Shown: piece after piece, positions 30,376 through 51,785 of the stretch | Layout: each line of letters starts with the position of its first letter | Numbering within the stretch: position 1 is the first letter of the stretch | DNA from: Winogradskyella costae | Lineage (GTDB): Bacteria > Bacteroidota > Bacteroidia > Flavobacteriales > Flavobacteriaceae | Assembly: GCF_013403865.1 (NCBI RefSeq) | Contig: NZ_JABFDK010000001.1 | Coordinates: 62,001-126,000 of the forward strand | Direction of reading: 5' to 3' | DNA: 64,000 nucleotides | Notes under the pieces: generated by a model | What the model was told of the DNA's origin: nothing | What the model saw: the letters and a program-made list of their open reading frames with translations, nothing else | The model's database searches: none | Translations under genes and position numbers: made by a program

Positions 30376-33300
30376 ATGAAAAGAGTCTTTTTAACTTTAT
30401 TAATAGTATTAACCAGCACCCATTTTTATGCACAAAATGAAGCTTCATTTTGGTATTTTGGGCAAAACTCAGGACTGCAATTTAATGCTGAAACAGGAGC
30501 TGTTACCGCCATAACCAATGGTCAGATAAATACTTTAGAAGGCTGTACTTCAATTGCTGATTCTGATGGGAATTTATTGTTTTATTCCGACGGAAGAACC
30601 GTTTGGAATAGAAATCACCAAATTATGGCTAATGGAAATTACTTTGCAGGCACAGGGCTTTTAGGAGATCCATCTAGCACTTCCTCTGGCCTTATTGTTC
30701 CTAAACCTGAAGATCCAGACAAGTATTATCTTTTTACTGTTGATGAACCTCATCATAATAACGCCAGTACATACCCTAACCCATATACAGAAACTTATGA
30801 AGGTGGTGGATCAGTTCCATACCAAGATGACGGTTTTAATAATGGTTTTAACTATTCATTAATAGATATGACTTTAAATGCGGGGTTAGGCGATGTCGAT
30901 TCCGAAGAAAAAAACATCCATTTAGTAACCTATGATGCATCTAGTCCATTAGAAATACAATATAAGAGTTCAGAAAAAATTACGGCTGTACGTGCTGAAG
31001 ACTGTACTTCGTTTTGGGTAATTACACATTTGGGCAATAAATTTTACTCCTTTAGAATTGGTGTCGATGGTGTACAATCTACCCCTATTATCTCAGAAAT
31101 TGGTCCTTATATTCCTATCGAAGGCTACAGGCGTAATTCTTTAGGTTATATTAAATCCTCCCCGGATGGTTCTAAACTAGTTGCCGCCAACTATGGCGAA
31201 GCTACAATAACAGGCGGCAATGCACCTGGCAACATTTTTTTATACGATTTTAATAATGAAACCGGAACGTTAACCAACCCTTTAGAACTTTACAGCTCGC
31301 AAAACGGAAATAGTCCATATGGCGTAGAATTCTCTGCTGAAAGTAGAAAAGTATACGCTACGATGAGCGAAGGCGGATCTGGAAATGGCACTAGCCATAT
31401 ATTACAATGGGACCTAGAAAGTAGTGATATTCCAAATTCAATTCAAATAATCCATTCCTCTAACGATGTCTCTGCTGGTGCATTGCAATTAGGTATCGAT
31501 CGACGTATTTATAGAGCAAATCTAAGTTATAATGGCAACCCCACAATTTCAAAATATTTAGGTATCATTAATAATCCTGAAGCTGATGGATCGGCAGCCA
31601 ACTATAACGAGCGCGGTATATTACTGGATGTTAATGGTTCGAATCAAAATACTAGTACAATTGGATTACCGCCTTTTATTCAATCGTTATTTAATTCTGA
31701 AACTGACATTATTAGAAATGGTATTAGTACCACCGAATTAAAATTATGTACTAACGACACCTACACATTACAAGCAGATGATATCATTGGTGCAGATTAC
31801 GTGTGGTCTTTTGATGGAGTACCTTTAACTGAAACTTCATCTCAATTAAGCGTAGACACTCCTGGTTTTTATGAAGTTTATATTGAACAGAATAATGGAG
31901 AATGCCCCATAACTGGTAATGCCGTTGTTGGTGTTTTTGAAATCCCCGTAGCACATCCTCTTTTAGATGTTAACGTTTGTGATATTGGGGATAACGATGG
32001 ATTTACAAGCTTCGATTTTACGACTAAAAATTCTGAAGCGTTATTAACTCAAAATACTTTAGAGTACAATGTAAGTTATTATGACACACTAGAAGATGCC
32101 AATTCTGGGGACAATCAATTAACATTTCCTTACACCAATATGTCTAATCCACAAACCATATTTGTCCGTGTAGATAACGCAAGCAACACCAATTGTTTTG
32201 CTGTCAATTCTTTTGATATTGAAGTATTTAACACTCCTCAAATTCCAATATTAAACACAATTGAGTTTTGTGATAATCTCGGTAATGTTATGGACGGTAT
32301 TGCCACAATAGCACTTGGAGATATCATTCCAACGCTTAGGGACGCTCAACCGGAAACAGATCTTAATATCACATTCCATGGTTCACAAGATGATGCAGAT
32401 ACAAACACCAGCGCATTGCCACTTAATTACACGAACACAAACGCAATTAACGACACTATTTTTGTTAGAGCTGAAAACACGTTAAACACTGATTGCTTTA
32501 ATACAGCTTCTTTTAATGTGGTAATTAATCCTATCCCTGTGGCCAATGATATTACAATTATTCAATGTGATGAAGATGGTATCCCTGAAGGTTTCACTAT
32601 TTTTAATTTGAAAGAAAGTATCGGCGAGATTACAGATAACGCCTTAAATACAAGTATTGATTTTTACACCTCTCGAACTGATGCTGAAAATGAAGAAAAC
32701 TCGATTAATGCGGATGCCTTTTACAATTACTTCAGCCCTCAAACCGTATATGCAAGAGTCACAAACTCAAGTTCTGACTGTGCCAACATTAGTGAAATTA
32801 CTTTAGAAATTAGTACCACCTCTTCAAACAACGCAAGTTTATCGTTATGCGATATAGATGGTAGCGAAGATGGATTTATGACATTTAATCTTACCGATGC
32901 TAACGCTACAGTTTTAGCCAACTCTCCTGTAGGATTAGATGTAGTGTATTATGAAACCTATGATGATGCCTTATTAGAAACTAATGCTATCAGTACAACA
33001 TATACCAATACCATACCTTACCAACACACTATTTATGCACGAGTAGAAAATGCCAGTGCTTGTTATGGTATAAGTCAAATATCCTTAACTGTTTTAAAAT
33101 TACCACATATTGAAACTGAATTTGAAACATTCTATTGTTTGAATTTCTTCCCAGAACCAATTATGCTAGATGGAGGTGTTGTAAATGACTCTGCCAGTAA
33201 CTACTATTACAGTTGGTCTACAGGAGAAAACACATCTGCAATTGAAATAAATACACCAGGAACTTACAGTGTTAGAGTTACGAACACAAATGGCTGTTTT

Positions 33301-33813
33301 AAAGATAGAACGATTACTGTATTGGCATCTAATATAGCATCCATTACGCAGATTGAGGTGATAGATGCATCTCAAAACAATTCTATTTCGATAATGGTTG
33401 ATGGCGAAGGAATTTACGAATATGCTATCGATGATATCGATGGTCCTTACCAAGATAGTCAAACCTTCAACCCTATTCAACCAGGATTTTATACCGTTTA
33501 TGTTCGTGATAAAAATAATTGTGGTATTGCAGAAGATTCAGTTTCTGTCATAGGCTTCCCTAAATTTTTCACACCAAACAATGATACCAAAAACGATTTT
33601 TGGCAAGTTTATGGTATTACTAATAATTTTCAAGCAAATGCTTCTATATTTATTTTTGATAGATATGGTAAACTTTTAAAAGAACTCGACCCTTTAAGTC
33701 CAGGTTGGGATGGCACCTTTAATGGCAAAAAAATGCCAACAAGCGACTATTGGTTTAAAGTTACCTTAGAAGACGGACGTACATTTACAAATCACTTTAC
33801 CTTAAAACGATGA
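30376..33813 (+). CDS. T9SS type B secreted protein with beta-propeller-like N-terminus (1145 aa)
   Basis: Signal peptide MKRVFLTLLIVLTSTHFYAQ. Residues about 25-430 look like a beta-propeller (ASFWYFGQNSGLQFN, GNLLFYSDGRTVWNRNHQIM, and SPDGSKLVAANYGE). Residues about 445-525 form an Ig/PKD-like domain. Then come four copies of a roughly 85-residue repeat starting with CD motifs (NVCDIGDNDG, EFCDNLGN, IQCDEDGIPEG, SLCDIDGSEDG), a linker YCLNFFPEPIMLDGG, a second Ig-like domain, and the type B sorting domain (FPKFFTPNNDTKNDFW to NHFTLKR). It is exported by Sec and then T9SS, and is expected on the cell surface. Its last 4 bases overlap the next gene (ATGA). Confidence 0.9.
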   Translation: MKRVFLTLLIVLTSTHFYAQNEASFWYFGQNSGLQFNAETGAVTAITNGQINTLEGCTSIADSDGNLLFYSDGRTVWNRNHQIMANGNYFAGTGLLGDPSSTSSGLIVPKPEDPDKYYLFTVDEPHHNNASTYPNPYTETYEGGGSVPYQDDGFNNGFNYSLIDMTLNAGLGDVDSEEKNIHLVTYDASSPLEIQYKSSEKITAVRAEDCTSFWVITHLGNKFYSFRIGVDGVQSTPIISEIGPYIPIEGYRRNSLGYIKSSPDGSKLVAANYGEATITGGNAPGNIFLYDFNNETGTLTNPLELYSSQNGNSPYGVEFSAESRKVYATMSEGGSGNGTSHILQWDLESSDIPNSIQIIHSSNDVSAGALQLGIDRRIYRANLSYNGNPTISKYLGIINNPEADGSAANYNERGILLDVNGSNQNTSTIGLPPFIQSLFNSETDIIRNGISTTELKLCTNDTYTLQADDIIGADYVWSFDGVPLTETSSQLSVDTPGFYEVYIEQNNGECPITGNAVVGVFEIPVAHPLLDVNVCDIGDNDGFTSFDFTTKNSEALLTQNTLEYNVSYYDTLEDANSGDNQLTFPYTNMSNPQTIFVRVDNASNTNCFAVNSFDIEVFNTPQIPILNTIEFCDNLGNVMDGIATIALGDIIPTLRDAQPETDLNITFHGSQDDADTNTSALPLNYTNTNAINDTIFVRAENTLNTDCFNTASFNVVINPIPVANDITIIQCDEDGIPEGFTIFNLKESIGEITDNALNTSIDFYTSRTDAENEENSINADAFYNYFSPQTVYARVTNSSSDCANISEITLEISTTSSNNASLSLCDIDGSEDGFMTFNLTDANATVLANSPVGLDVVYYETYDDALLETNAISTTYTNTIPYQHTIYARVENASACYGISQISLTVLKLPHIETEFETFYCLNFFPEPIMLDGGVVNDSASNYYYSWSTGENTSAIEINTPGTYSVRVTNTNGCFKDRTITVLASNIASITQIEVIDASQNNSISIMVDGEGIYEYAIDDIDGPYQDSQTFNPIQPGFYTVYVRDKNNCGIAEDSVSVIGFPKFFTPNNDTKNDFWQVYGITNNFQANASIFIFDRYGKLLKELDPLSPGWDGTFNGKKMPTSDYWFKVTLEDGRTFTNHFTLKR

Positions 33814-36272
33814 CGAATTCCCCTAATTTTATAAAAAAAGCTCTAATATTAATTGGTTGCTTTTTTTGTAGTACTTTAATTTATGCTCAACAACCTAATG
33901 ATTGCCAATTCGCCGTAACGGTTTGTGGTAATTCCGATTTTAGTTTAGATGTCAGTGGTGTTGGTACGCAAGAGCTAAATAATTCTAATACCTGTGGAAG
34001 CCAAGAAAACAATAGTATTTGGTTAGAAGTTAACATAGCTACCGACGGAACACTCGCATTTACCCTAACTCCAAGCAGTAATAATATTAGTGAAGATTAT
34101 GACTTCTTCATTTTTGGACCTAATGTAAGCTGCGGTAATATTGGACAAGCCATTAGATGCTCCACGACAAATCCTGCAGCTGCTAATCAAGGAAATAATA
34201 GAACAGGATTAAACTCCTCGTCAACAGAAACAGCTGATGGCCCTGGTGCCAGCGGTGATAGTTTTGTAAGCGCCATAGATGTCTTAGCTGGCGAAAGTTA
34301 TTATATAGTTATTGATAGACCTATTGGTAACAGTCCGTTTTCATTAGAATGGACTGGCACAGCTACTTTTCCTGAAGCACCATCAAATCCTTTGATCAAT
34401 GACACAACATCAATCAGTTTACCTAATATTGAGGTTTGTGATTCTATTGCCCCTTATGATGATAATATCACAGAATTTGACCTCAACACTTTAACTCAAG
34501 ATATAATCAATGGTGAATCAGATGTTATGGTTACCTATCACAACTCTGAAAGTGATGCAAACATTAATGTAAACGCCTTAGGTAATATTTTTAATAACGC
34601 AACGGCTAATGAAATTATATATGTTAGAGTAGAAAACTTAACATCGGGCTGTTATATTTTGAATAATTTTGAAATTAATGTCTCGACACTTACCAATTTT
34701 AATACTGCGACAGATTATAATATTTGCGATGATGATTTAGATGGGGATGATCAAAACGGTATTTCAACTTTTGATTTTAATGTGAAGTCACAAGAAATTA
34801 TCGACGGAATTGCAGGTACCAATTATGATATTAGCTATTACTTAAATCAAGCAGACGCCGAAACATCCACTTCTTCATTACCTTTAAACTATAGAAATGC
34901 GGCACCTACACCAAATGAAATATTTGTTAGGATTGAAGATTTAGATTCAGGATGTATTGGTTTTACATCGTTTAATATAAATGTGGATCCTATACCAGTA
35001 GCTAATAATGTAGCACTTTTACAATGTGATGAAGATGGTATTCCGGAAGGTTTTACAACATTCAACATCACTCAAGCATCTGACGAAATTACAGAAGGAA
35101 ATCCGAACTCGACTATAGAGTATTACCTATCTCAGATTGATGCAGAGAATCAAGAAAATGCTATTGATGGTAATTCTTTTGATAATTTTTTCAATCCACA
35201 AATTATATATACCAGAGTCACTAATACAAGTAGTAACTGTATTAACTTTAGTGAAATTTCTCTAGAAGTTAGCACAACAGCAACTAACAATGCTAGTATT
35301 CAGTTATGCGATACAGATGGCATAGAAGATGGTATTATGGAGTTTAATCTTAGCACTGTAGATGACACTATTTTCCCTAATTCTATTGATGATTTTATTT
35401 TAACGTATTATGAAACTTATGAAGATGCCTTACTAGAAAGCAATGCACTTTCAGACTTATTTACAAATACTGTCGCCTATAATCAAACCATATATGGACG
35501 TTTAGAAAACGCTAACGCATGTTATGGTATTAGCGAAATAGAACTTACTGTTTTTAAATTACCAAATATTGAAACCACATTTGAAACACAATATTGTCTG
35601 AACTTTTTCCCAGAAACAATAACCATTAATGGCGGACTCATCGATGATATCCCAAACAATTACTATTACGAATGGTCAACTGGTGAGGACACTTCTACTA
35701 TTGAAGTTAATGCTCCAGGAACCTACAACGTAAGAGTCACAAATACAAATGGATGTTTTAAAGATAGATCTGTAACGGTTCTTGCGTCAAATATTGCTAC
35801 AGTAACCAATATTGAAGTTGTAGATGCCACTCAAAATAATACCATCACTGTTTTTGTAAGTGGCGAAGGAGATTATGAATATGCGCTAGATGAAATTAAT
35901 GGTCCTTACCAAAATGCTACGACTTTTGAAGATGTAGCGCCAGGACTTTACACTGTTTACATTAGAGATAAAAATAATTGTGGAGTCACAGACGCCTTAG
36001 TATCTGTGATTGGTTTCCCTAAATTCTTTACGCCAAATGCCGATGACAAAAATGATTATTGGCAAGTAAAGGGGATTTCTTCTCTTTTTCAATCCAATTC
36101 TTCCGTATTGATATTTGACCGTTATGGAAAACTAATAAAAGAACTCGATCCGCTTAGCGTGGGTTGGGATGGAACATTTAATGGAGAGCTAATGCCAAAT
36201 AGTGATTATTGGTTTAAAGTTAAACTTCAAGATGGACGAACATTTACCAATCATTTTACCTTAAAACGGTAA
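33810..36272 (+). CDS. T9SS type B secreted protein (820 aa)
   Basis: Signal peptide through about residue 26 (ends TLIYAQ). Residues 27-185 form a domain frequent in flavobacterial surface proteins (CQFAVTVCGNSDFSLDVSG; DYDFFIFGPN; GDSFVSAIDVLAGESYYIVID), probably a carbohydrate-binding-like jellyroll. Four 85-residue CD repeats follow (EVCDSIAPYDD, NICDDDLDGDDQNG, LQCDEDGIPEG, QLCDTDGIEDG), then the FYCLNFFPE-type linker, an Ig-like domain and the sorting domain ending NHFTLKR. From the third repeat to the end it is strikingly similar to the preceding protein, while the N-terminal domains are unrelated, so the pair is a domain-swapped duplication. Confidence 0.9.
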   Translation: MTNSPNFIKKALILIGCFFCSTLIYAQQPNDCQFAVTVCGNSDFSLDVSGVGTQELNNSNTCGSQENNSIWLEVNIATDGTLAFTLTPSSNNISEDYDFFIFGPNVSCGNIGQAIRCSTTNPAAANQGNNRTGLNSSSTETADGPGASGDSFVSAIDVLAGESYYIVIDRPIGNSPFSLEWTGTATFPEAPSNPLINDTTSISLPNIEVCDSIAPYDDNITEFDLNTLTQDIINGESDVMVTYHNSESDANINVNALGNIFNNATANEIIYVRVENLTSGCYILNNFEINVSTLTNFNTATDYNICDDDLDGDDQNGISTFDFNVKSQEIIDGIAGTNYDISYYLNQADAETSTSSLPLNYRNAAPTPNEIFVRIEDLDSGCIGFTSFNINVDPIPVANNVALLQCDEDGIPEGFTTFNITQASDEITEGNPNSTIEYYLSQIDAENQENAIDGNSFDNFFNPQIIYTRVTNTSSNCINFSEISLEVSTTATNNASIQLCDTDGIEDGIMEFNLSTVDDTIFPNSIDDFILTYYETYEDALLESNALSDLFTNTVAYNQTIYGRLENANACYGISEIELTVFKLPNIETTFETQYCLNFFPETITINGGLIDDIPNNYYYEWSTGEDTSTIEVNAPGTYNVRVTNTNGCFKDRSVTVLASNIATVTNIEVVDATQNNTITVFVSGEGDYEYALDEINGPYQNATTFEDVAPGLYTVYIRDKNNCGVTDALVSVIGFPKFFTPNADDKNDYWQVKGISSLFQSNSSVLIFDRYGKLIKELDPLSVGWDGTFNGELMPNSDYWFKVKLQDGRTFTNHFTLKR

Positions 36273-36310
36273 TTTTAAAAATTGTACTTTCGTTTGACCA
36301 ATCTCGTAAT

Positions 36311-38092
36311 TTGAAAAATCCTCATTACATATTATGTTTCTTCCTATTTAGCATAGTTCAACCTTTTTTTGCTCAAGATGTTTCATTATACCAACAATTT
36401 AATGGCAGATATGATTATACTGCTATTGGTAATACTATGAATATTACTGAAAATGGTAGTTTTGGCCCTTGTACTATTTTAACCTCATCATCAGCCAACT
36501 TATCGTTAAATAGCGATCAAAATGTAGTTGCTGCTTATTTATACTGGGCAGGTTCGCATACTGGAGATTTCAATATTTCATTAAACACTATAGATATCAC
36601 GGCTGAACGTACATTTAGCGATGCTTTAGATGCTAACCGTGTTTTCTTTGCTGCATTTGCGGATGTGACGTCAATAATTTTAGATCAAGGCAGCACTAAT
36701 TACACCGTCTCTAATTTTGATCTTACCACTGATATTGGTCCATACTGTTCTACAGGCACCAATTTTGGTGGCTGGGCAATAACTATTATTTATGAAGATA
36801 ATAACCTACCTCTTAACCAACTTAATGTTTATGATGGTTTACAAAGTGTCCCTGATTTCCTAGATATTACACTCGATAATTTAAACGTATTAGATAATGA
36901 AAATGCGAAAATTGGTTTTATTGCTTGGGAAGGTGACAAATCTTTAGCCGTTAATGAGCAACTCACTATTAACGGAAGTGTTATTAGCAACCCACCCTTA
37001 AATCCTGCAAATAATGCCTTTAATGGTACTAATTCTTTTACTGGTGATTTTAATCTATACAATATGGATATTGATGTTTATAGCATTCAGAATAACATCA
37101 ATATTGGAGATACCTCAGCTACGATCTCACTTACCTCTGGCCAAGATTTTGTAATGATAAATAATATTATTACCGTTTTAAATAGTCAACTACCAGATGC
37201 CACCATAACTGTTGACAATGATACTGTAAGCTGCGGAGATACTAGCATTCAATTATTTTATACCGTGTATAATTTAAATAGCACCGATGTTTTACCTGCC
37301 AATACACCAATTGCATTTTATAGTGATGGTATTTTTATTGATGCTGGTGCAACGGTTAATGATATTGCTATAAACGCCAGTGAAGAAAATTCAATTTACC
37401 TCACATTACCAAATAGTACAGACCCTAATATTACTATTGTAGCCATAGTAGATGATAATGGCACTATGACAGGTGTAGTTACAGAATCTAACGAAAACAA
37501 TAATAGCGCATTTAAAACTATTGAATTACTAACGGTTTCCGAAATTACACCACTCCCTAACCTAATTGGCTGTAATGAGGGTTTAGAAATTTCGAGTTTT
37601 AACTTATTCGAAGCTCTTAACTCAATAAATTATAATGAGGAAGATATTACATTTTACTACGCATTAGATGACTTAAAAACGGATGATAATGCGATTATTA
37701 TACCATCAGACTATAATAACACCCATAATCCTGAAACCATATTTGTTAAATTAAGACAAGATCCTTGTTATGAGATATTTCAATTTGATTTAACCGTTGA
37801 AAACTGTCCACCTTATATTCCTCAAGGATTCTCCCCTAATGATGACACAAAAAATGATTGGTTCAATATTCAAGGATTATATGATGTATTTACAGAACAC
37901 GAATTACATATTTACAACCGCTATGGAGAGCTGATTTTTATTGGCCATAATGAAATGCCATGGTTGGGTAAAATAAACAGAGGACTTAACAATAAAGGCA
38001 ATAAAGCCCCTGTGGGTACGTACTATTATATTTTAAATTTAAATGACCCAAATTATGAACCCTTTGTAGGTTGGGTATACATAAACTATTAA
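36311..38092 (+). CDS. T9SS type B / gliding-associated secreted protein with GWVYINY terminus (593 aa)
   Basis: Start codon TTG; it gives a clean signal peptide ending IVQPFFAQ. Residues about 20-295 are a beta-rich adhesion-like domain (QNVVAAYLYWAGSHTG; GGWAITIIYEDNNLPLNQLN) common in Bacteroidota, residues 300-410 resemble a CARDB-type domain (VSCGDTSIQLFYTVYNLN), and there is one degenerate copy of the 85-residue repeat (GCNEGLEISSFNLFEALN to VKLRQDPC). The C-terminus is the gliding-associated domain of another subtype: QGFSPNDDTKNDWFNIQG, IYNRYGELIF, PVGTYYYIL and ending GWVYINY. It starts 38 bases after the previous stop. Confidence 0.85.
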   Translation: MKNPHYILCFFLFSIVQPFFAQDVSLYQQFNGRYDYTAIGNTMNITENGSFGPCTILTSSSANLSLNSDQNVVAAYLYWAGSHTGDFNISLNTIDITAERTFSDALDANRVFFAAFADVTSIILDQGSTNYTVSNFDLTTDIGPYCSTGTNFGGWAITIIYEDNNLPLNQLNVYDGLQSVPDFLDITLDNLNVLDNENAKIGFIAWEGDKSLAVNEQLTINGSVISNPPLNPANNAFNGTNSFTGDFNLYNMDIDVYSIQNNINIGDTSATISLTSGQDFVMINNIITVLNSQLPDATITVDNDTVSCGDTSIQLFYTVYNLNSTDVLPANTPIAFYSDGIFIDAGATVNDIAINASEENSIYLTLPNSTDPNITIVAIVDDNGTMTGVVTESNENNNSAFKTIELLTVSEITPLPNLIGCNEGLEISSFNLFEALNSINYNEEDITFYYALDDLKTDDNAIIIPSDYNNTHNPETIFVKLRQDPCYEIFQFDLTVENCPPYIPQGFSPNDDTKNDWFNIQGLYDVFTEHELHIYNRYGELIFIGHNEMPWLGKINRGLNNKGNKAPVGTYYYILNLNDPNYEPFVGWVYINY

Positions 38093-38559: not shown

Positions 38560-41500
38560 ATGACTTATTTAAACCGCTCCCTCTGCTTATTTATTGGATT
38601 AATTTCTAGTATATCCTTTTCACAACAAGTAACCGTAGATAATTCAGTTTCACCTCAAGACTTAATTCAAAACACATTAATCCAGGGTTGTGTAGAAGTT
38701 TCAAACATTAACTCTCTCTCAAATGGATCTTCAATTGGCATTGGCAGTTTTGGTTATTTTGAGCGTTCTAGTTCAAACTTCCCTTTCGAAAATGGAATTG
38801 TTTTAACCACAGGAAATGCATCTTCTGCTGGTAATGATCTAAACAATGCAATCTTAAACGACGGAGATGCAACATGGTTAACAGATAGCGATCTTGAATC
38901 TGCCTTAGGTATATCTGGTACGGTGAACGCAACATCTATAGAATTTGATTTTATATCCATTTCAAATCAGATACAATTTAATTACATCTTAGCATCAGAA
39001 GAATATTTTGGTAATTTCCCGTGTAATTATTCTGATGGTTTTGCTTTTTTAATTAGAGAAGCTGGCACCACGGACTCATATACCAATATTGCTTTAATAC
39101 CTGGAACCACAACTCCGGTGAACACTAATACGGTTCATGATGAAATTGTAGGATTTTGTCCAGCTTCAAACGGAGAATACTTTGAAGGTTATAATCTTGG
39201 AGATACTAATTATAATGGAAGGACTACTGTTCTTTCTGCTACTGCCGCGATTCAACCAAATGTGCAATATCAAATAAAACTTGTTATTGCAGATCAAAAT
39301 GATCAAAATTATGACTCTGCGGTCTTTATTGAAGGAAATAGCTTTAATGCCTCTGTAGATTTAGGAGAAGATTTCTCTACATGTGCTAGTAGCGTTGCGT
39401 TAGATGGAAACATAAACAATCCTAATGCCGTCTATTCTTGGTTTTTCAATGATACACAAATTCCTTCTGCTAATCAATCAAATTTAATAGCATTACAATC
39501 GGGTAACTACCGTGTAGAAGTACAATTGCCTCTTGCAGGAAATTCTTGCGTAATAGAAGATGCTATTGACGTGACTTTAAGTTCTACACAAACCTCCGAT
39601 CCTATAACCGATTTTTCACTTTGTGATGACCTAATTGGTGATGGTTTAGAGATATTTGACTTATCGACTAAAGATGCCGAAGTAATAGCCTCTGTTCCTT
39701 CTTCAACATATACAATTTCTTACCACTATAATAATACAGATGCTATTAATAATAATAACCCTATTACAAGTCCTATTCAAAATACATCGAGTCCACAACC
39801 GATTCACGTAAGAATTGAGGACACCGTGAATGGCTGTTTAGCATTTTCAACCTTCAATTTAGTTGTAAATTCTTTACCAGTAATTTCTAACCCAACTCTT
39901 TTAGAGGTTTGTGATGATGGCTCTGCTAACGGAAGAGTAGCCATGGATATCAATGCCTATAAAGATTCTGAAATAACACTTTCGCAACCAAACCTTGTCG
40001 TCAGTTATCATGGTTCTGCATCAGATGCAGCTTCTGGCATCAATGCTTACCCGATGCCTTATACCAACACAAACTCTGCAGAAGTTTTATATGTAAGTGT
40101 TAAAAACACAGAAACTGGCTGTATTAGTACAACAATTTTAAACGTTAACATCATAGACAGTCCTACTATCAACACGGAAACGCATTATATTGATGCCTGT
40201 GATACGGATTTAGATGGTTATGCTAATTTTGATTTAACTACAATTATCCCTGAAGTTTTAGAAGGCTTAAATGGTGTAACAGTAACATTTCACACCTCTC
40301 CAGATGATGCACTTTCCGGATCAAACCCAATTGCAGACGAAACGAATTATGCAAATATTAATTCTGAAGAACAACTAGTATACATCAGAGTGGAAAACAT
40401 AGGTTCTGGCTGTGCCTCAACAACACCTATAGAACTTCATACTAACCTATTATTAACAGCAACAAATATTAGAGATATTTCGGCATGTGATGTTGGTGAT
40501 GATGACACAGAAGGGTTTGATTTTGAAAATATTGCTGTTGGTATTATCAATGAATTACCAGATGTTGAAGTCGTATTTTATGAATCGGAAATAGATAGAG
40601 ACAATGGAAATAATGCCATTAATACTGCTGTATCTTATAATTCACAGAGCAACCCACAAACCATTTACATTTCTTTAGAAAGTCTAACTTGTACTGAAGT
40701 TGCAGAATTTGATTTGATATTGTACCCTATTATTCAATTTGATTCTGTTGTTAGTTTAACAGTTTGTGATGAAGATCAAGATGGTTTTACCACGACAAAC
40801 TTATCGGCATTAAACGGTGATATTACCAATGGCGAAGAAGGTTTTGAAGTCACCTACTTCCCTACAGAACAAGATGCTATTGATAATACTAATGTATTAC
40901 CTAATAATTATGAAAATGTAAGTAACCCATTTACATTATATCCTAGAATTACATTTTCTGAAACCGGTTGTTTTGATTACAACTCTTTTGAAGTTACAGT
41001 TTTACCAGCACCAGAAAGCGAAAAACCTTTAGATATCATAATTTGCGATGCTGATAGAGACGGCTTCTCCTTAATAAATTTAAATAATAGCATACCTAAT
41101 TCTATTTTAGCAACTCCTAACAGAAGTGTAAGCTTTCATAATAGTTTAGCTGATGCGCGTTCTGATGAAAATGAAATTCAAGGTTTAACAAACTATTCCG
41201 CACAAACAGAAATTGTTTACATGCGTGTAGAAAATAGCACTACAGGCTGTTATGCTATTGAAGAATTAGACATTATTGTAAATGCCTTACCGTATGTTGG
41301 TGATTTATCTAACTACGTAGAACACTATACCTTTTGTGAAGATGTATCTGATGGTATTGGTCAGTTTATTTTTGAAAACAAAGACAGCGAAGCTTTAGAC
41401 GGACAAACTGGTAAAGTGGTAAGCTATTACCGTACTTCAACTGACGCCGACAACAAAACTAATCCTATTGATAAGACAAGTACTTATGAAAACATTAGCA

Positions 41501-43401: not shown

Positions 43402-43427
43402 TAAATATAACTTCCAATCTTAATTTT

Positions 43428-43463: not shown

Positions 43464-43555
43464 ATATTTAAAAATAGGCTTTTCATTCTTATAGAAAACT
43501 ACACACATTATTAAATTAAAACGCTCTAATATAAAACAGTAATCATATATACAAT

Positions 43556-43648
43556 AATTTGCCTACCGAGGACTATTAGTTTTTAGCAGAAATTAAACAA
43601 GGTTCTCATGGTTCTGAAGCGAAAGGTCACTTTACGCTTCATCGTTAA
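43556..43648 (+). pseudogene. Remnant of the 3' end of a deleted T9SS type B gene
   Basis: In one frame the sequence reads NLPTEDY-stop-FLAEIKQGSHGSEAKG then HFTLHR and TAA (43646-43648). This aligns without gaps to the end of the neighbouring 1613-residue protein (ILPTSDFWFTAEIKRG to GHFTLKH). The stop codon TAG (43577-43579) stands exactly where the conserved Trp (TGG) of DYWF/DFWF should be. Only the last 30 or so codons remain; nothing upstream in the 150-base gap resembles the body of a cargo gene. Confidence 0.85.
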
Positions 43649-43678
43649 TAAAAACATATCATCTTTTTTAACATCTTA

Positions 43679-43713
43679 TTTGAATTTAGATAATTCTTTG
43701 TAGTGTATCTTTG
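43679..43713 (+). promoter_or_regulatory. Bacteroidota-type promoter for the 788-aa T9SS protein gene
   Basis: TTTG (43679-43682), 23-base spacer, then TATCTTTG (43706-43713) followed by CA. The ATG used for the gene is 18 bases further on, so the TTG at 43711, which lies in the box itself, cannot be the start. Confidence 0.6.
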
Positions 43714-43731
43714 CAGTCCCTTAAAACAAAA

Positions 43732-46077
43732 ATGAAGCAAATACTACTTGCTATTGCCCTTTTTTTTTCTCTATTGAATTATGCTCAAAATATTTCAGTA
43801 GATAGTCAGACATATACGGCTCAACAACTTATAGAAAATGTTTTAATTGATAGTGACTGTATAGACAACGTTACAGTAACCAATGTTGTTGGTGGTGATT
43901 TTGGAGGTTCGGATCAAAGCTATGGATATTTTGACGCTACAGGTACTAGTTTTCCTTTTGAAAGTGGTGTTGTTTTAAGCACAGGACGATTAAATAATGT
44001 ACCTGGACCAAATAACACTTTAAGTGATGATAACGCTCCTAATTGGATTGGAGATGGTGATCTGGAAAATGCTTTAAACGAATCTGGTACAATAAACGCT
44101 ACTATTTTAGAATTTGAATTTACCTCAGTTGCATCGCAGATTAGTTTTAGATACCTTTTTGCTTCAGAAGAGTACCAAGAAAATAATTCGAATACCTGTA
44201 GGTATTCTGATTTATTCGGTTTTTTAATTAGACCTACAATCGGACAACAAGCTTATGAAAATATAGCGTTAGTACCAAATACAGACACACCTGTTAAAGT
44301 GACTACGGTAATGCCAGGAGTTCAAGGTAGTTGTCCACCAGAAAACGAAACCTATTTTGGAAGTTATAACGCTAGTAATGCACCTATAAATTTTAATGGG
44401 CAGACTGCTATTTTAACCGCTACAGCTAACGTTATACCAAACACAACTTACCATGTTAAATTGGTTATTGCTGATGAACAGAATTTCAGATACGACTCTG
44501 CAGTTTTTTTAGAGGCTAGTAGTTTTGAACTCTCTACAAATATAGGACCAGACTTACTTCTCGCAACAAACAATGCACTTTGTGAAGGTGAAACACTAGA
44601 ACTTAATGCATTGCAAGAGGAGCAAAACACTTATGAATGGTTTAAAGATGGTGTTCTAGTTCAAAGTGCCTCTGGCTGTACAATTTGTGAAACTTACACC
44701 GTTACAGAGGCTGGCACCTATATAGTTGAAGTTACCTTAGCTAATGGTTGTATTTCTTATGGGGAAGTTATAATTGAATATGCCCTCTTACCTATAGCCA
44801 CTAATTCTGTTTTAATTGAATGTGACAGTAACCAAGATGGGTTAACACTTTATGATTTATCCGATGCTACTTCGGATTTAACCAGTGCCAACCAAGACTC
44901 ATATATTGATCAGTTTTTCTTCTCAGAAGCTGAGGCTTTAGCAAATATAAATCCAATTACAAATCCTGATGCGTTTCTAAACACAACACCATTTCAAACG
45001 GTTTATGTAAGAATCATAAACAGAGCGGATTGTTTAGAGATTGCTGAGTTAGAATTACAAACCTCAAATAACACCATATCCATTCCTAATTTAAAAGGTT
45101 GTGATGGAGAGCTTATAGACGGCTTCACTACTTTTAATTTGTCTGAGATTCAGAACTCTATTCAAAATCAAATTCCGACAAATGCAGTTGTTCGTTATTT
45201 TGAAACGGAAGAAGATGCTTTGAATAACACTAATCAACTGTCTATTAATTTTGAAAACACTGAAGCATATACCCAAACTATTTTTGTAAAAATCACAAAT
45301 AACAATCAGTGTTATGGTATTTCTACAGTTAACCTCGATGTCCTTTATACTCCGCTTTTAAAACCTGATGAAACGGTATTATATTGTCTAAATACTTTTC
45401 CGGAACCACTCACAATATATGGTGGTGTGCTAAATGATTTACCGAATAATTATTATTACGAATGGCAATTTAATGGGATTGCGACATCAAACACCACTTT
45501 GTTTTATGAGGTTACAGAACCTGGGGTTTATACGGTGATTGTTACGGACCCTAATGGTTGTTCTGCGAGCAGAACAATTACAGTTTTAGCCTCAGAATTA
45601 GCCACTATAGATAATGTTAGCGTTGTAGGTGTTGCTCCTAATAATGTGGTAACTATTACACTTTCAGGTGACGGGAATTATGAAATCGCGATAGATGATA
45701 TCGATGGATTTTATCAAGATGATTTCGTTTTCACAAATGTTTCAAAAGGCTTTCATACGGTTTATATAAGAGATAAAAATGGTTGTGGTAATCAAGAAGA
45801 AATAATTTCGGTTTTAGGTTTCCCAAAGTTTTTTACTCCCAATGGAGATAACGATAATCCTACTTGGCAAGTTATTGGTACTGCAGCTCAATTCAATCAA
45901 ATAGAATCTATTCAGATTTTTAACCGTTATGGTAAATTGATAACGCTACTTACAAATTCAAATCGTAGTTGGAATGGCATGTTAAAAGGAAAACTACTTC
46001 CAAGTGATGATTATTGGTTTATCGCTAATTTCTATGATGGCAAAACTTATGCTGGTCATTTTGCTTTGCGTAGGTAA
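43732..46077 (+). CDS. T9SS type B protein with choice-of-anchor L domain and two CD repeats
   Basis: The ATG at 43732 gives the signal peptide MKQILLAIALFFSLLNYAQ; a TTG seven codons upstream lies inside the promoter box and is rejected. Residues about 20-260 form a choice-of-anchor L domain (GGSDQSYGYFDATGTSFPFESG; YLFASEEYQENNSNTCRYSD; YDSAVFLEASSF) like that of the giant protein. Then an Ig-like domain (LCEGETLELNALQEE), two CD repeats (IECDSNQDG and KGCDGELIDG), the YCLNTFPEPLTIYGG linker, another Ig-like domain and the sorting domain (FPKFFTPNGDNDNPTWQ) ending AGHFALRR. It is a short-repeat version of the giant neighbour. Confidence 0.92.
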   Translation: MKQILLAIALFFSLLNYAQNISVDSQTYTAQQLIENVLIDSDCIDNVTVTNVVGGDFGGSDQSYGYFDATGTSFPFESGVVLSTGRLNNVPGPNNTLSDDNAPNWIGDGDLENALNESGTINATILEFEFTSVASQISFRYLFASEEYQENNSNTCRYSDLFGFLIRPTIGQQAYENIALVPNTDTPVKVTTVMPGVQGSCPPENETYFGSYNASNAPINFNGQTAILTATANVIPNTTYHVKLVIADEQNFRYDSAVFLEASSFELSTNIGPDLLLATNNALCEGETLELNALQEEQNTYEWFKDGVLVQSASGCTICETYTVTEAGTYIVEVTLANGCISYGEVIIEYALLPIATNSVLIECDSNQDGLTLYDLSDATSDLTSANQDSYIDQFFFSEAEALANINPITNPDAFLNTTPFQTVYVRIINRADCLEIAELELQTSNNTISIPNLKGCDGELIDGFTTFNLSEIQNSIQNQIPTNAVVRYFETEEDALNNTNQLSINFENTEAYTQTIFVKITNNNQCYGISTVNLDVLYTPLLKPDETVLYCLNTFPEPLTIYGGVLNDLPNNYYYEWQFNGIATSNTTLFYEVTEPGVYTVIVTDPNGCSASRTITVLASELATIDNVSVVGVAPNNVVTITLSGDGNYEIAIDDIDGFYQDDFVFTNVSKGFHTVYIRDKNGCGNQEEIISVLGFPKFFTPNGDNDNPTWQVIGTAAQFNQIESIQIFNRYGKLITLLTNSNRSWNGMLKGKLLPSDDYWFIANFYDGKTYAGHFALRR

Positions 46078-46481: not shown

Positions 46482-46489
46482 TATTTTTG
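46482..46489 (+). promoter_or_regulatory. Possible promoter box for the 768-aa T9SS protein gene
   Basis: TATTTTTG fits TAnnTTTG, 23 bases before the ATG; no TTG stands at the proper distance upstream. The preceding gap from 46078 holds nothing else that I can identify. Confidence 0.35.
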
Positions 46490-46512
46490 CCCACTATTTT
46501 TACATCAACTAC

Positions 46513-48819
46513 ATGAAGAATTATTCGCTTTTACTGTTACCCCTCGTCTTAATTTTAAACAGTTTTTTTTTAATTAACACTCCCAATTACGCATCTTATA
46601 ATACTGAGAACATTGCTTGTCCGGCGCCGATAATAAACACATTTAATCCTTTAAGCGGACCTGAAAATACAGAAATTACAGTTAATGGAAGTAATTTCAA
46701 TACCTTGGCCACAGTCGATTTTAACGGTATTAATGCGGTATTTACAATTCTAAGTGATACTGAAATTGCTATTAATGTTCCTTCTGGAATTGCTTCAACA
46801 TCTAACATAACACTCACAACTTCTGGTGGCTGTGATACCACAACGCCCTCGAGTTTCTCCTTACTAAATTCTGATTGTAATTCTGCAGATGAGATTTACA
46901 TCTCAGAAGTTTATGACTCTGATGGAGGAAGTTATGGTGTAATAGAAATCTATAATCCAACTAATGCTACTATAAACTTAGATACAGTTTACGAAGTGCA
47001 ACGTTTTGGAGATATCGGTAATGCTGCCCCAAGCGCTACGATTCTATTAGAAGGCACTATTGCGCCTCTTAGCACCTATATTATTGAAATGGGTAACACA
47101 GGTAATACTTGTAGTGGCTTAACGGCTGGTGTATCGATTAATGCTGGTATTAACGAAGATGATGAAATTAAATTAGTGAAAAATGGGGTTGTCATCGATG
47201 TAATGTTTACAGATAATGAAATTGGTTACAGTTTTATTAGAAACGCAGATTCATCTGCACCGAGTACAGCATTTAACCTTAACGAGTGGTTATTGTTAGA
47301 AGATGAAGATTGCTCTAATTTAGGAGCTCATACGGCTAATGGTGGTAGTTCTACTCCAAATATTACACATCCTAACAGTCAAGATATTTGTGAAAACGGT
47401 ACAGCTACTTTTTCTGTGTCTGTAGATAACGGATCATATACTTACCAATGGCTTGTTCTTAATAGTGCTGGAAACTGGGTTAACGTCACTAACGACAGTA
47501 ATTATTCTGGAGCGACAACAAATACATTAACCATTACAAATACACCTGCGAGTTTTAATGATTTTCAATACTACTGTATGATATCATCTGCCGGTTGTAA
47601 TCTGGTTTCGAACGCTGCTCAACTTGAAGTTTCAAATCCTGAAGTTGATACCTTATCCAACCAAACGGTGTGTTCTAACTACACCTTACCTGCTTTAACT
47701 AACGGGGATTATTATACAGGAACTAACGGAACTGGTACTCAACTTAACGCTGGAGATGTTATTACATCGTCTCAAACAATCTATATTTATAATGTTTCTG
47801 GTACCGCGCCAAACACTTGCCAAAATGAATCTAGCTTTAGCATTTCTATTAGTGGAAATCCACTTGTAAGTGTCATAGCCAATCAAACTGTTTGTTCTGA
47901 ATATGTGTTACCAAGTATCACTAATGGAAATTATTTTACAGGTGCAAATGGAAGTGGTTCACCTTTAAATGCAGGAGATGTTATATCTGCCTCACAAACG
48001 ATTTACATTTATAATGAAGCCGGAACAGCTCCTAATATTTGTACCAACGAAAGTAGTTTTGATGTAAGTGTAACTGGAACTCCAAATGTGGATATACTTT
48101 CTGACGTTTCAATTTGTTCAGAGTTTATTTTACCTAACCTTACGGATGGCAATTATTTTACAGAAACCAACGGAGCAGGAACGCAACTTAATGCTGGCGC
48201 TAGTATTTCAACATCGCAAACCATCTTTATTTATAATGAAATTGGTACAAATCCAGATACTTGTAGTAACGAAAGTAGCTTTGATATTGCCATCTACCCT
48301 TCTACAGATTTCATACTATCAGATTCAAACATTGCAATCAATGGAAGTTCTGCAACGATAACAATGACCGATACTTCTATCGATTACGAATATGCTATTG
48401 ATGGGACTAGTTTTCAAAGTGAAAATACGTTTACAAATATTTCTGAAGGTACACATACCTTGTATGTACAAGATGCTAATGGTTGTATTATTAAATCTAT
48501 CGATTTTGAAACCACAACGTCAACCATTGAGTTAATTATACCAAATGGGTTTTCACCGAATAATGATACTAAGAACGATTGGTTTAACATTCAAGGTTTA
48601 TATGATGTTTACACTAATCATAAATTAGAAATCTATAACCGCTACGGAACTTTAATTTTTGAAGGAAACAATAGTAATAAATGGTTCGGAATAGCAAATA
48701 AAGGCTTAATGTACACGGATAAAGTGTTACCAGTAGGAACTTACTTTTATGTTTTATATTTAAATGAACCTAACACAGATTCTAAACCTTTTACGGGTTG
48801 GGTTTATCTTAATAAATAA
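46513..48819 (+). CDS. Surface protein with IPT, lamin-tail and three 74-aa repeats, GWVYLNK terminus (768 aa)
   Basis: After a hydrophobic signal sequence (about 5-22), residues about 36-118 are an IPT/TIG domain (PAPIINTFNPLSGPENTEIT), residues about 125-275 resemble a lamin-tail domain (EIYISEVYDSDGGSYGVIEI), and residues about 285-375 an Ig-like domain (YTYQWLVLNSAGNW). Three 74-residue repeats follow, recognisable by NQTVCSNYTLPALTNG, AGDVITSSQTIYIYN and CQNESSF. The C-terminus is the gliding-associated subtype NGFSPNNDTKNDWFNIQG, PVGTYFYVLYL, ending GWVYLNK, close to that of the 593-residue protein and unlike that of its own N-terminal twin downstream. Confidence 0.88.
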   Translation: MKNYSLLLLPLVLILNSFFLINTPNYASYNTENIACPAPIINTFNPLSGPENTEITVNGSNFNTLATVDFNGINAVFTILSDTEIAINVPSGIASTSNITLTTSGGCDTTTPSSFSLLNSDCNSADEIYISEVYDSDGGSYGVIEIYNPTNATINLDTVYEVQRFGDIGNAAPSATILLEGTIAPLSTYIIEMGNTGNTCSGLTAGVSINAGINEDDEIKLVKNGVVIDVMFTDNEIGYSFIRNADSSAPSTAFNLNEWLLLEDEDCSNLGAHTANGGSSTPNITHPNSQDICENGTATFSVSVDNGSYTYQWLVLNSAGNWVNVTNDSNYSGATTNTLTITNTPASFNDFQYYCMISSAGCNLVSNAAQLEVSNPEVDTLSNQTVCSNYTLPALTNGDYYTGTNGTGTQLNAGDVITSSQTIYIYNVSGTAPNTCQNESSFSISISGNPLVSVIANQTVCSEYVLPSITNGNYFTGANGSGSPLNAGDVISASQTIYIYNEAGTAPNICTNESSFDVSVTGTPNVDILSDVSICSEFILPNLTDGNYFTETNGAGTQLNAGASISTSQTIFIYNEIGTNPDTCSNESSFDIAIYPSTDFILSDSNIAINGSSATITMTDTSIDYEYAIDGTSFQSENTFTNISEGTHTLYVQDANGCIIKSIDFETTTSTIELIIPNGFSPNNDTKNDWFNIQGLYDVYTNHKLEIYNRYGTLIFEGNNSNKWFGIANKGLMYTDKVLPVGTYFYVLYLNEPNTDSKPFTGWVYLNK
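47641..48306 (+). repeat. Three 222-base in-frame repeats
   Basis: Units begin at 47641, 47863 and 48085, exactly 222 bases (74 codons) apart, each encoding an Ig-like module with two conserved cysteines (VCS...Y, then C.NESSF). Sequence between units is diverged but length is invariant. Confidence 0.9.
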
Positions 48820-48841
48820 AACCAATTATTTTTTTCACCGT

Positions 48842-48849
48842 TAATTTTG
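48842..48849 (+). promoter_or_regulatory. TAnnTTTG box close to start codon
   Basis: TAATTTTG ends 5 bases before the ATG at 48855. It may give a nearly leaderless transcript, or the match may be chance in AT-rich DNA, since the gene is only 35 bases behind the previous one. Confidence 0.3.
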
Positions 48850-48854
48850 AAGCA

Positions 48855-51785
48855 ATGAAACGCATTAATTTATTAATTCACTTTACCTACCTCTTAAGTT
48901 TAATCATTATTACGAATGCTTATGCCACAGTAAATACCGATATTATAGAGGGTAATAGTTTTTGTCCTGCTCCAATAATTAATGCCTTTACACCTGCTAA
49001 TGGTCCAGAAAACACATTAATTACGATCAACGGGAGTAACTTTAATGATGCTGCTTCTGTATCCGTTGATGGAATTAATACCAGCTTCACCATAATAAGT
49101 GATTCTCAAATCACAGCACTTATACCTGCTGGTGCAATTGATACTTCTAGCATTTCGATTGTAAGTAATGGTGGCTGTACAGGAAGTTCGTCCACTGATT
49201 TTACCGTGTTAGAATCGTCATGTAGTGTTAGTGAAATTTATTTTTCTGAACTATATGATGCACAGAGTGGTGCATTTGGAATTATTGAACTTTACAATCC
49301 AACAAATACAACTGTAAACTTAGATGGAGTTTATGAAATTTTCAGATATGGAAATATTGGTGAACCTGATGCTACAGCCACCATTATATCTTTAACAGGC
49401 TCAATCTCGCCACTAAGCACTTTTATTATTCAAAGTGATGGTCCTGATCCGTGCACTGGATTCTCTATAGATTTTACTTTAGACGCTGGATTTAATGATA
49501 ATGATGAATTTAAGCTTAAAAAAAATGGCATTGTTATAGACAATGTTCAAGCCATTGATGAGAGAGGTTATACTATAATTAGAAATGCAGATGCTGTTGC
49601 ACCTTCAAGTACTTTTGAAACCAACGATTGGTATAATGATGGTAGTGAAGACTGCAGCGATATTGGGTCTCATACCGTAAATACATCAAGCACCTCGCCT
49701 AACATTACCCATCCACTTTCGCAAGACATATGTGAAAATGGGAATACTTCTTTTTCAGTTTCAGTAGATATGGGCTCATACACTTACCAATGGATGATCC
49801 TTAATAGTTCTGGAAATTGGGTAAATGTCACTAACAACAGTAATTACGCTGGTGCATCATCTAATACTTTAACGATTTCTAACGCACCCTCTAGTTTCAA
49901 TGGGTATCAATACCATTGTATTATAACCTCTACCGATTGTGATTTAGTATCAAATGCAGTTCAACTTCAAGTTTTTAACCCAACTGTAGATGTTTTTTCA
50001 AATCAAAGCGTATGCTCGGACTACACCTTACCGGCTTTAACTGACGGAGACTATTATACCGCAACTAATGCCAGTGGCACACTACTCAACGCTGGTGCTG
50101 TTATTTCGACAACACAGACCATTTATATTTATAACGAAATAGGAACAGCTCCTAATACGTGCTCTAATGAAAGTAGCTTCGATGTCACCATTACAGGTGC
50201 ACCGAACGTGGATACTATTGCGGACCAAGATGTGTGTTCAGATTATACCTTGCCTGCACTAACAGATGGTAATTATTTTACAAGTGCTAATGGTAGTGGA
50301 TCACAGCTCAATGCAGGTGAAATTATTTCAACAACACAAACCATCTACATTTATAACGAAATAGGAACAGCTCCTGACACATGTTCAAACGAAAGTAATT
50401 TTGAAGTTACCGTGAGTGGCACTCCTAATGTAGATACACTTTCTGACCAAACGGAATGTGGATCCTATAGTTTACCAACTCTTATAGACGGTAATTATTT
50501 TACAGGTACAAACGGTACAGGAACACCACTTAATGCTGGTTATAGTGTTTTGACTACACAAACCATTTATATTTATGTTGAAATTGGCACAGCTCCAGAC
50601 ACATGTACAAATGAAAGTAGTTTTGAGGTTACAATAACGGGTGCCCCAAATGTCGATGCAATTTCTAATCAAGCTGTTTGTTCAAGCTATACTTTGCCTA
50701 CCTTAACAGATGGTAATTATTTTACAAGTACGAACGGTACAGGAACACAACTCAATGCTGGCGACATTATTTCAACAACACAAACCATCTACATTTATAA
50801 TGAAATAGGAACAGCTCCAAATAGTTGTTCAAACGAAAGCAGTTTTGAGGTTACAGTAAGTGGCACTCCAAATGTAGATACGCTTTCGGACCAAGCGGAA
50901 TGTACATCGTACACATTACCAACACTTACCAATGGAAATTATTTTACAGGCACAAATGGTACAGGTACAGCACTTAATGCAGGTGATAGTATAACGACGT
51001 CGCAAACTATTTTTATCTATGATGAAATAGGCACAGCACCAAACGCATGCACCAACGAAAGTAGTTTTGATGTTGCAATAACCGGCATACCAAATGTAGA
51101 TACACTTAGTAACCAAACTGTTTGTTCAGAATACACATTACCTACATTAACCAATGGCAATTATTTTACTGCAACCAATGGCACAGGAACACAATTAAAT
51201 GCAGGAAGTGTTATTACAAATTCTCAAACCCTATACATTTATAACGAAATAGGAACAGCACCAAACACCTGTTCTAATGAAAGCAATTTTAACATTACGA
51301 TTAATGAGGCTATCGATTTTACTTTAGATGAATTTAATATTGTTATAACTGATGGCACACTTACTGTGACCATGACGGATGCCTCTATAGATTACATATT
51401 TGCTATAGATGAATCCAATTTCCAAACTTCTAATGTATTCAATAATCTTGGACGAGGTCTACATCAATTATATGTTCAAGACAGTAACGGTTGTATTTTA
51501 AAAACGCTCAATTTTGAAATTGAAGTAGATCTTTTTATCCCAGTATTCTTCACTCCAAATAACGATAATGCTCATGATACGTGGACCGTTATTGATCGAA
51601 ATCGTATTGTAAAAGAGATACTTATTTTCAATAGATATGGTAAGCTTATTAAGCAGTTGATTCCTTCAAATTATTCATGGGACGGCTATTATAATGGAAA
51701 AATGCTAGAGTCAAATGATTTCTGGTATTTAATTACTTTAAAAACAGGAGAAGAACTTAGAGGCCATTTTGCTTTAAAACATTAA
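48855..51785 (+). CDS. T9SS type B protein with IPT, lamin-tail and six 74-aa repeats (976 aa)
   Basis: The signal peptide ends near INAYA. The N-terminal 375 residues mirror the preceding protein: IPT/TIG (PAPIINAFTPANGPENTLIT), lamin-tail-like (EIYFSELYDAQSGAFGIIEL), Ig-like (YTYQWMILNSSGNW). Six consecutive 74-residue repeats follow, then a short DEFNIVITDGTLTVTM domain and a type B sorting domain (IPVFFTPNNDNAHDTW, IFNRYGKLIKQL) ending RGHFALKH. Compared with its neighbour, it has twice as many repeats and the other sorting-domain subtype. Predicted to be secreted and anchored at the cell surface; ligand unknown. A strong terminator follows. Confidence 0.92.
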   Translation: MKRINLLIHFTYLLSLIIITNAYATVNTDIIEGNSFCPAPIINAFTPANGPENTLITINGSNFNDAASVSVDGINTSFTIISDSQITALIPAGAIDTSSISIVSNGGCTGSSSTDFTVLESSCSVSEIYFSELYDAQSGAFGIIELYNPTNTTVNLDGVYEIFRYGNIGEPDATATIISLTGSISPLSTFIIQSDGPDPCTGFSIDFTLDAGFNDNDEFKLKKNGIVIDNVQAIDERGYTIIRNADAVAPSSTFETNDWYNDGSEDCSDIGSHTVNTSSTSPNITHPLSQDICENGNTSFSVSVDMGSYTYQWMILNSSGNWVNVTNNSNYAGASSNTLTISNAPSSFNGYQYHCIITSTDCDLVSNAVQLQVFNPTVDVFSNQSVCSDYTLPALTDGDYYTATNASGTLLNAGAVISTTQTIYIYNEIGTAPNTCSNESSFDVTITGAPNVDTIADQDVCSDYTLPALTDGNYFTSANGSGSQLNAGEIISTTQTIYIYNEIGTAPDTCSNESNFEVTVSGTPNVDTLSDQTECGSYSLPTLIDGNYFTGTNGTGTPLNAGYSVLTTQTIYIYVEIGTAPDTCTNESSFEVTITGAPNVDAISNQAVCSSYTLPTLTDGNYFTSTNGTGTQLNAGDIISTTQTIYIYNEIGTAPNSCSNESSFEVTVSGTPNVDTLSDQAECTSYTLPTLTNGNYFTGTNGTGTALNAGDSITTSQTIFIYDEIGTAPNACTNESSFDVAITGIPNVDTLSNQTVCSEYTLPTLTNGNYFTATNGTGTQLNAGSVITNSQTLYIYNEIGTAPNTCSNESNFNITINEAIDFTLDEFNIVITDGTLTVTMTDASIDYIFAIDESNFQTSNVFNNLGRGLHQLYVQDSNGCILKTLNFEIEVDLFIPVFFTPNNDNAHDTWTVIDRNRIVKEILIFNRYGKLIKQLIPSNYSWDGYYNGKMLESNDFWYLITLKTGEELRGHFALKH
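49983..51314 (+). repeat. Six 222-base in-frame repeats
   Basis: Units start at 49983, 50205, 50427, 50649, 50871 and 51093 with an exact 222-base period and no indels. Units 2 and 4 and units 3 and 5 are the closest pairs by eye (for example GTPNVDTLSDQ in 3 and 5; ISTTQTIYIYNEIGTAP in 1, 2 and 4), which points to duplication of a two-unit block. Confidence 0.93.

Follow-up and report, generated by a model that had tools for sequence, protein, structure and literature searches.

A conserved island of type B cargo genes in Winogradskyella that probably serves as a bank of track-borne adhesins

The window analyzed here, a stretch of 64,000 nucleotides of Winogradskyella costae (contig C11, positions 62001 to 126000, from the 4.13-Mb genome G000), carries seven consecutive genes for T9SS type B cargo proteins. 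Judged by gene order in relatives, the locus is an old island of conserved order, and such clustering is not unusual for the genus. We read it as a conserved bank of track-borne adhesins that share one distant shuttle, joined by two probably static cargos, and put the probability of this reading at roughly 0.6. The parts are of known kinds. In the literature searched, we found no earlier description of a conserved, expanding island of shuttle-less cargos, nor of a match between tail clade, cysteine motif, and PorE-like neighbor.

The region from 30376 to 51785 is filled by seven plus-strand open reading frames (ORFs) of 593 to 1613 aa (g1 to g7). All seven products match PF13585 and TIGR04131 (the C-terminal type B domain) above the curated cut-offs, and all have N termini that look like signal peptides by eye. 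An earlier note, made from the letters of the window, had described seven consecutive same-strand type B genes in 21 kb with HFTLK/HFALR- or GWVYxN-type ends, and both points held for all seven: the termini of g1, g2, g4, g5, and g7 are of the HFTLKR, HFTLKH, HFALRR, and HFALKH kinds, and those of g3 and g6 are GWVYINY and GWVYLNK. The features of the locus are the following.

28459..29382, plus strand: ABC transporter ATPase, upstream neighbor (165 bits with the GldA model, cut-off 402.6)
29441..30268, plus strand: ABC-2 permease, left border (matched in 40 of 41 genus genomes)
30376..33813, plus strand: g1, position A, 1145 aa; ~90-aa repeats, HFTLKR-type type B CTD
33810..36272, plus strand: g2, position B, 820 aa; HFTLKR-type CTD, tail homologous to g1, head different
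36311..38092, plus strand: g3, position C, 593 aa; GWVY-type CTD, listed start TTG
38560..43401, plus strand: g4, position D, 1613 aa; choice-of-anchor L head, HFTLKH CTD
43571..43648, plus strand: remnant of a slot (S) gene, its last 78 bp with an in-frame stop (81 to 82% identity with the ends of the S genes in G040 and G022)
43711..46077, plus strand: g5, position E, 788 aa; choice-of-anchor L head, HFALRR CTD
46513..48819, plus strand: g6, position F, 768 aa; TIG and lamin-tail-like head, GWVY-type CTD
48855..51785, plus strand: g7, position G, 976 aa; HFALKH CTD, head and repeats sister to g6
50079..51290, plus strand: tandem repeats of 222 bp, 5.5 copies, within g7
51942..53945, plus strand: uvrB, right border (place conserved in genus relatives)

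The genes are closely packed, with a 4-bp overlap between g1 and g2, gaps of 35 to 38 bp between g2 and g3 and between g6 and g7, and gaps of 309 to 467 bp elsewhere. The start of g5 is listed as TTG, but an in-frame ATG at 43732 seems the likelier one. A Bacteroidota-type promoter pattern occurred 3 times versus 4.2 times expected from shuffles, so we claim no promoters. Each island protein appears to consist of a distinct N-terminal head (of a binding type where it can be named), a repeat stalk in most cases (about eleven ~94-aa repeats in g4), and a sorting tail. The homologous pairs are the tails of g1 and g2, the heads of g4 and g5, and the heads of g6 and g7; no convincing match was found between the heads at A, B, C, D, and F. 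The lamin-tail-like domain of g6 and g7 scores near or under its cut-off. The head of g1 was modeled as a beta-propeller-like fold in a low-confidence model (mean pLDDT of 60); a closer assignment was dropped, the matches being many unrelated beta-propellers at low TM-score, and only the fold class is claimed. The modeled g3 head is beta-rich, and one CARDB chain was the last of the 50 fold matches listed, among which no whole-chain match was found (TM-scores to the query, 0.11 to 0.18). Sequence searches of the PDB with g2 and with the candidate shuttle described below gave no match at E<=0.01. Named records from W. psychrotolerans RS-3 and W. pacifica hold proteins 88% identical to g3.

The island accounts for 7 of the 28 PF13585 matches of the genome (4 of the 28 are contig-end fragments). 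When 25 genes were placed at random, at most 5 fell within 21.4 kb in 20,000 trials, versus the 7 observed. Genes of this kind had been described as normally scattered, which is true of the other type B genes of this genome and fails for this locus, where they are clustered in relatives wherever the sequence is readable.

To compare the locus across the genus, we anchored on the ABC permease and examined the sequence that follows it in 39 genomes besides that of the window; G037 lacked a permease match. Five genomes (G023, G025, G031, G033, and G044) were left out of the role table, as their regions end before position C; two more (G043 and G046) had no uvrB within 39.8 kb and were counted as partial with six others. 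Roles A to G and S were assigned by position, length, and tail, with heads compared afterwards, so the island order is partly built in. Median head identities within each role were 63 to 77%, with minima of 41 to 62% for A, C, D, E, F, and G; the minimum of 19% for B means that at least one genome has another head there. The order A (B) C D [S] (E) [F G], with optional genes in brackets, was found in 27/27 islands complete from permease to uvrB, the window included. These islands hold 3 to 10 cargo genes and comprise ABCDSE (6 islands), ABCDSSE (5), ABCDE (5), ABCDSEFG (3), ABCDSSSEFG (2), ACDE (2), ACD (2), ABCDEFG (1, the window), and ABCDSSEFG (1). Slot S is occupied in 17 of the 27, and the F-G pair is present in 7. 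The ABC ATPase occupies the same place in most named relatives, and the position of uvrB is retained in the 27 genus islands.

The core of the island extends beyond the genus. Two Psychroserpens loci and one Subsaxibacter locus have the permease followed by A-(B)-C-D-E; behind E, both Psychroserpens loci continue with a long ORF other than uvrB, and the Subsaxibacter one stops there. One Flavobacteriaceae metagenome-assembled genome (MAG) has permease-A-C-D-E-uvrB (L223), another has permease-A-B-C-D (L222), and isolate NBU2973 has C-D-E-uvrB (L227). The comparison refines the suggestion that the locus serves diversification: gene number does vary and the genes are not identical everywhere, and this happens within an old island of conserved order.

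The window itself appears to record one such change. An eighth gene in decay had been proposed, and we take it to be the 78-bp remnant at 43571-43648, which is real but tiny. It lies in the 309-bp gap between D and E. A stretch made up of the final 140 bp of the gap and the initial 50 bp of g5 as listed matches an S-gene end and its downstream DNA (190 bp at 89% in G022 and 186 bp at 88% in G040). The beginning of the gap resembles the DNA that follows D in these genomes, at 78 to 80%. The S gene encodes 1,888 aa in both of these closest relatives. Since the remnant matches the end of their S genes, the lineage of the window has lost its S gene, probably by a deletion that left the tail behind. 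The D-E gaps of ten other S-less genomes held no relic.

The islands vary in the D-E slot, in the F-G pair, in whether B and E are present, in the number of repeats, and in tail gene conversion. The S genes are homologous to D, and their lengths cluster near 1,610 to 1,630, 1,890, and 2,166 to 2,190 aa. In the genes examined, one or two additional cassettes, each of three ~93-aa repeats, account for these steps. Neighboring cassettes share only 59 to 63% DNA identity; the length steps are therefore old, and we rejected a recent amplification. The length of G in relatives (829 to 1051 aa) is likewise consistent with a change in repeat number. Gene E alone is inverted in G024, G027, and G030, and a second variable spot, between E and uvrB or after E, is seen in G043 (L157:5936-13615), G046 (L158:2263-6147), G011 (L161:8367-11677), and G003. 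In genomes that lack F-G, this spot may contain hybrid two-component regulators (G043 and G046), a protein resembling a fiber, with a YadA head and Peptidase_S74 (G043), a kelch protein (G011), or other ORFs (G003).

Exact DNA tracts shared by A and B near their 3' ends reach 1259 bp (G047), 1119 bp (G010), 1030 bp (G009), and 402 bp (G038), and they sit at the same distance from the stop although the A and B heads differ. The A and B tails were sisters in 10 of 30 genomes (including G036, with support of 0), and in 12 of 30 the tract within a genome exceeded the best one between genomes. Tail gene conversion between A and B thus reads clearly from the DNA of some lineages, and none is visible in the window; concerted evolution in all genomes was rejected, as conversion was not seen in some of them. 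Over the last ~90 columns, the median A-B identity within genomes (79%) was similar to that of either kind between genomes (75 to 76%), so the A/B class signal is weak there. In seven genomes with the F-G pair, CTD identities were 29 to 39% for F-G, 59 to 64% for F-C, and 42 to 54% for G-D or G-E, and the F and G heads were 44 to 52% identical in six of the seven (23% in G040, whose F ORF is shortened). F and G share head and repeats yet differ in tail, and tails therefore behave as exchangeable modules.

We then collected type B tails and their PorP neighbors from six genomes and built a tree of 136 CTDs. The tree excluded two matches below the cut-off (G011 and G036), one truncated fragment from contig C10, and two contig-end duplicates; two further G034 matches below the cut-off lay outside the tail set, and two weak TIGR03519 rows (G005 and G034) were not counted as PorPs. 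A clade of HFTLKR (HFxL) tails comprised 74 of the 136 CTDs with a support of 0.90. It included island positions A, B, D, S, E, and G, and thus g1, g2, g4, g5, and g7 of the window, plus 4 to about 10 HFxL tails per genome from outside the island. Only 12 of the 74 tails (two per genome) had a PorP neighbor and 62 had none, whereas a PorP stood beside 44 of the 62 tails outside the clade; all PorPs counted (13 + 43) had an adjacent CHU_C gene. The ten pairwise CTD identities among g1, g2, g4, g5, and g7 were 38 to 77%, lowest for g2-g7 (38%), g1-g7 (40%), and g4-g5 (44%), and g3-g6 were 62% identical. The GWVY tails of g3 and g6 resemble those beside PorPs without the cysteine motif, many of which are followed by a PorE-like gene. 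We could not name a shuttle for g3 and g6 from the tree, the node joining them to PorP-linked tails having a support of 0.037. The PorE-linked C44 tail (GPIYVATN) grouped nearer the HFTLKR clade than the GWVY tails, and hence tail shape alone does not give the class. Contig C22 of the genome of the window encodes a 2,021-aa type B cargo ending in GAFVFIK (141612-148684), whose PorP has a CxxC tail; the pair is kept in G011 and G034 and perhaps represents a third address class.

No PF11751 or TIGR03519 match at E<=0.001 was found in the window, as the earlier note had said of PorP/SprF-like genes, and all 13 of the genome lie elsewhere, so that any shuttle used would have to come from a gene outside the window. 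Each of the six genomes has two cargo-PorP pairs in the HFTLKR clade. One is a ~2,740-aa protein ending in HFTLYR with a PorP of 327 to 334 aa, preceded by a 487-aa CHU_C protein and an 871-aa PorP-fold protein; from gene order, we tentatively liken this set to sprC-sprD-sprB-sprF. In the genome of the window, the 871-aa protein (C33:277919-280534) has an N-terminal PorP/SprF domain and a long C-terminal part and stands where SprD would be expected. The other pair is a giant HFTLKR cargo with a PorP of ~337 aa, which in the genome of the window is the 337-aa product of C49:215-1228; of its partner cargo, the contig covers only the last 68 aa. Giant HFTLKR genes are interrupted by assembly breaks at the ends of contigs C10, C49, C51, and C1, and a near-identical tail of ~205 bp is common to the last three.

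Among 31 PorPs from three genomes (13, 9, and 9), 6 have a C-terminal Cys-X-Cys (CxC), two per genome, and these are exactly the ones paired with HFxL tails. Three have CxxC, all with GAFVFIK partners, and the remaining 22 have neither motif; the 22 include two PorP-fold proteins at the SprD place, whose long extra C-terminal part means that their ends do not compare directly with other PorP tails. A PorE-like (OmpA/PD40) gene follows 7 of the 13 PorPs of the genome of the window, all with partners outside the HFxL clade, and neither CxC PorP precedes such a gene. At E<=1e-40, a C49-type shuttle was found in 39 of 41 genus genomes and 107 of 120 family genomes, the weaker family matches not being proven orthologous. 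CxC is present in 59/59 of the best-scoring loci (the best 30 of 39 in the genus, with that of the window included, and the best 29 from other genera, these at 65 to 79% identity). The shuttle adjoins an HFTLKR tail in 9/9 genus loci with full upstream sequence and has no CHU_C neighbor in 15 of 19 fully readable loci from other genera. The island HFT CTDs are 33 to 62% identical to the CTD beside C49 (48 to 62% for g1, g2, and g4, 35% for g7, and 33% for g5), a comparison limited to 68 aa by the start of the contig. The genome also encodes GldJ and GldK. The Cys in the GldK motif NDRGCFMANF may be the equivalent of Cys343.

In Flavobacterium johnsoniae, three orphan type B CTDs use one orphan shuttle, Fjoh_1677, and are directed to the gliding machinery; they share it at >44% identity, crosstalk was seen at 68% identity and not at 43%, and a PorE-linked cargo appears static (PMC12618676). 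Like the island, these orphans are type B CTDs without an adjacent shuttle gene and form a similar group. A shared distant shuttle was demonstrated for them and is our interpretation for the island, and three orphans in F. johnsoniae compare with a conserved island of 3 to 10 genes in Winogradskyella. Fjoh_1677 has no CHU_C gene directly upstream (PMC12618676), unlike the Winogradskyella shuttle gene, which adjoins one giant cargo; it is the C49-type loci of other genera, most of them without a CHU_C neighbor, that resemble Fjoh_1677 in gene neighborhood. The C-terminal CxC of F. johnsoniae SprF forms a disulfide with GldK and is required for normal adhesin movement and not for export (PMC12635249); the terms "orphan" and "Fjoh_1677" are absent from the main text of that paper. 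As in the SprB/SprF system (PMC5879114, which names the sprCDBF operon, and PMC12635249), the island CTDs belong to the clade of the SprB-like CTD of their genome and the candidate shuttle is CxC tailed; unlike in that system, the island genes lack their own shuttle, have other heads, and encode 593 to 1613 aa versus 2736 aa for the SprB-like protein. Compared with the PG1035-PorP-PorE and Fjoh_3952/3951/3950 complexes (PMC9143113 and PMC12618676), g3 and g6 have GWVY tails like those next to several PorE-linked PorPs of their own genome but have no adjacent PorP or PorE. A complete gliding protein set has been reported for two other Winogradskyella strains (PMC7440613).

From these observations, the most likely reading is that g1, g2, g4, g5, and g7 are carried on the gliding track and share one shuttle, with binding, movement, and adhesion all presumed from sequence. 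After passage through the SprA translocon, the five proteins would be taken up by the single PorP/SprF-family shuttle encoded at G000:C49:215-1228, whose C-terminal CxC would join GldK of the gliding track, and they would travel over the cell surface like SprB. The GWVY-tailed g3 and g6 are probably the static kind of cargo and would use a shuttle without the cysteines, more likely staying fixed. The bank would diversify by gain and loss in the D-E slot and by three-repeat cassettes, and in some lineages gene conversion would copy tails between neighbors while heads remain distinct. The expectation of a distant export partner was thus probably right and can be narrowed to the C49 PorP for five of the seven proteins, with none nameable for g3 and g6; of the proposed roles as cell coat or adhesins, a cell coat seems less likely for the five than track-borne gliding adhesins. 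Three findings count against parts of this scheme. The g5 (33%) and g7 (35%) identities fall under the published >44% sharing level, a second CxC shuttle (SprF-like, C33) could serve some cargos, and the CxxC PorP with its GAFVFIK tail and the position of the PorE-linked C44 tail speak against strictly two classes.

The search for PorP/SprF paralogues left C33 and C49 as the two kinds with a CxC tail, and some or all of the five HFTLKR-clade cargos might use the former (C33:288843-289826), the SprF-like shuttle of the SprB-like operon. We consider this unlikely. The HFTLYR partner of C33 is in the same clade, island HFT CTDs are 30 to 38% identical to it, and for g5 the identity to it (35%) slightly exceeds that to the C49 partner, but g1, g2, and g4 are much nearer to the latter, and the C49-type shuttle often stands alone outside the genus, like the published orphan shuttle. 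It is similarly improbable that all seven proteins are static coat or adhesin proteins whose tail classes reflect CTD ancestry instead of destination. The CTD tree alone would also fit such simple descent; against it, CxC tracks the tail clade in 3/3 genomes and is kept in all of the best-scoring relatives, and the published orphan CTDs go to the gliding machinery.

The cluster might also be a copying accident, the product of plain tandem duplication without shared function. Homology within the pairs g1/g2, g4/g5, and g6/g7 and between S and D is what such copying would leave, but A, C, and D keep their order in 27/27 complete islands and beyond the genus, and the A, B, C, D, and F heads lack a convincing mutual match, which makes this account doubtful indeed. 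Most improbable of all is that the upstream ABC pair is a dedicated component of the cargo system. The island adjoins the permease wherever the sequence reached far enough, and the ATPase has some similarity to GldA, but it scores far under the GldA cut-off, and uvrB on the opposite side also holds its place in 27 genus islands, so that the linkage of the ABC pair alone says little. We know of no ABC exporter that serves T9SS cargos.

Beyond the shared shuttle, which we prefer for the five cargos, we tentatively put forward a wider proposal that may well not hold in full: type B tails would form an address code readable from sequence, HFxL tails leading to track-bonded CxC shuttles and GWVY tails to stationary, mostly PorE-linked shuttles without the cysteines. 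The island would then be a cassette bank with diversifying heads, its track address kept uniform in part by gene conversion, and the sisters g6 and g7 would carry opposite addresses, one fixed and one moving. If this is true, the moving or fixed fate of a cargo and its likely shuttle would be predictable across the Flavobacteriaceae from the last hundred residues of the cargo and the tail of the shuttle. The g6/g7 pair would offer a natural head-matched comparison of address versus head, and the island would show one gliding machine serving many different adhesins.
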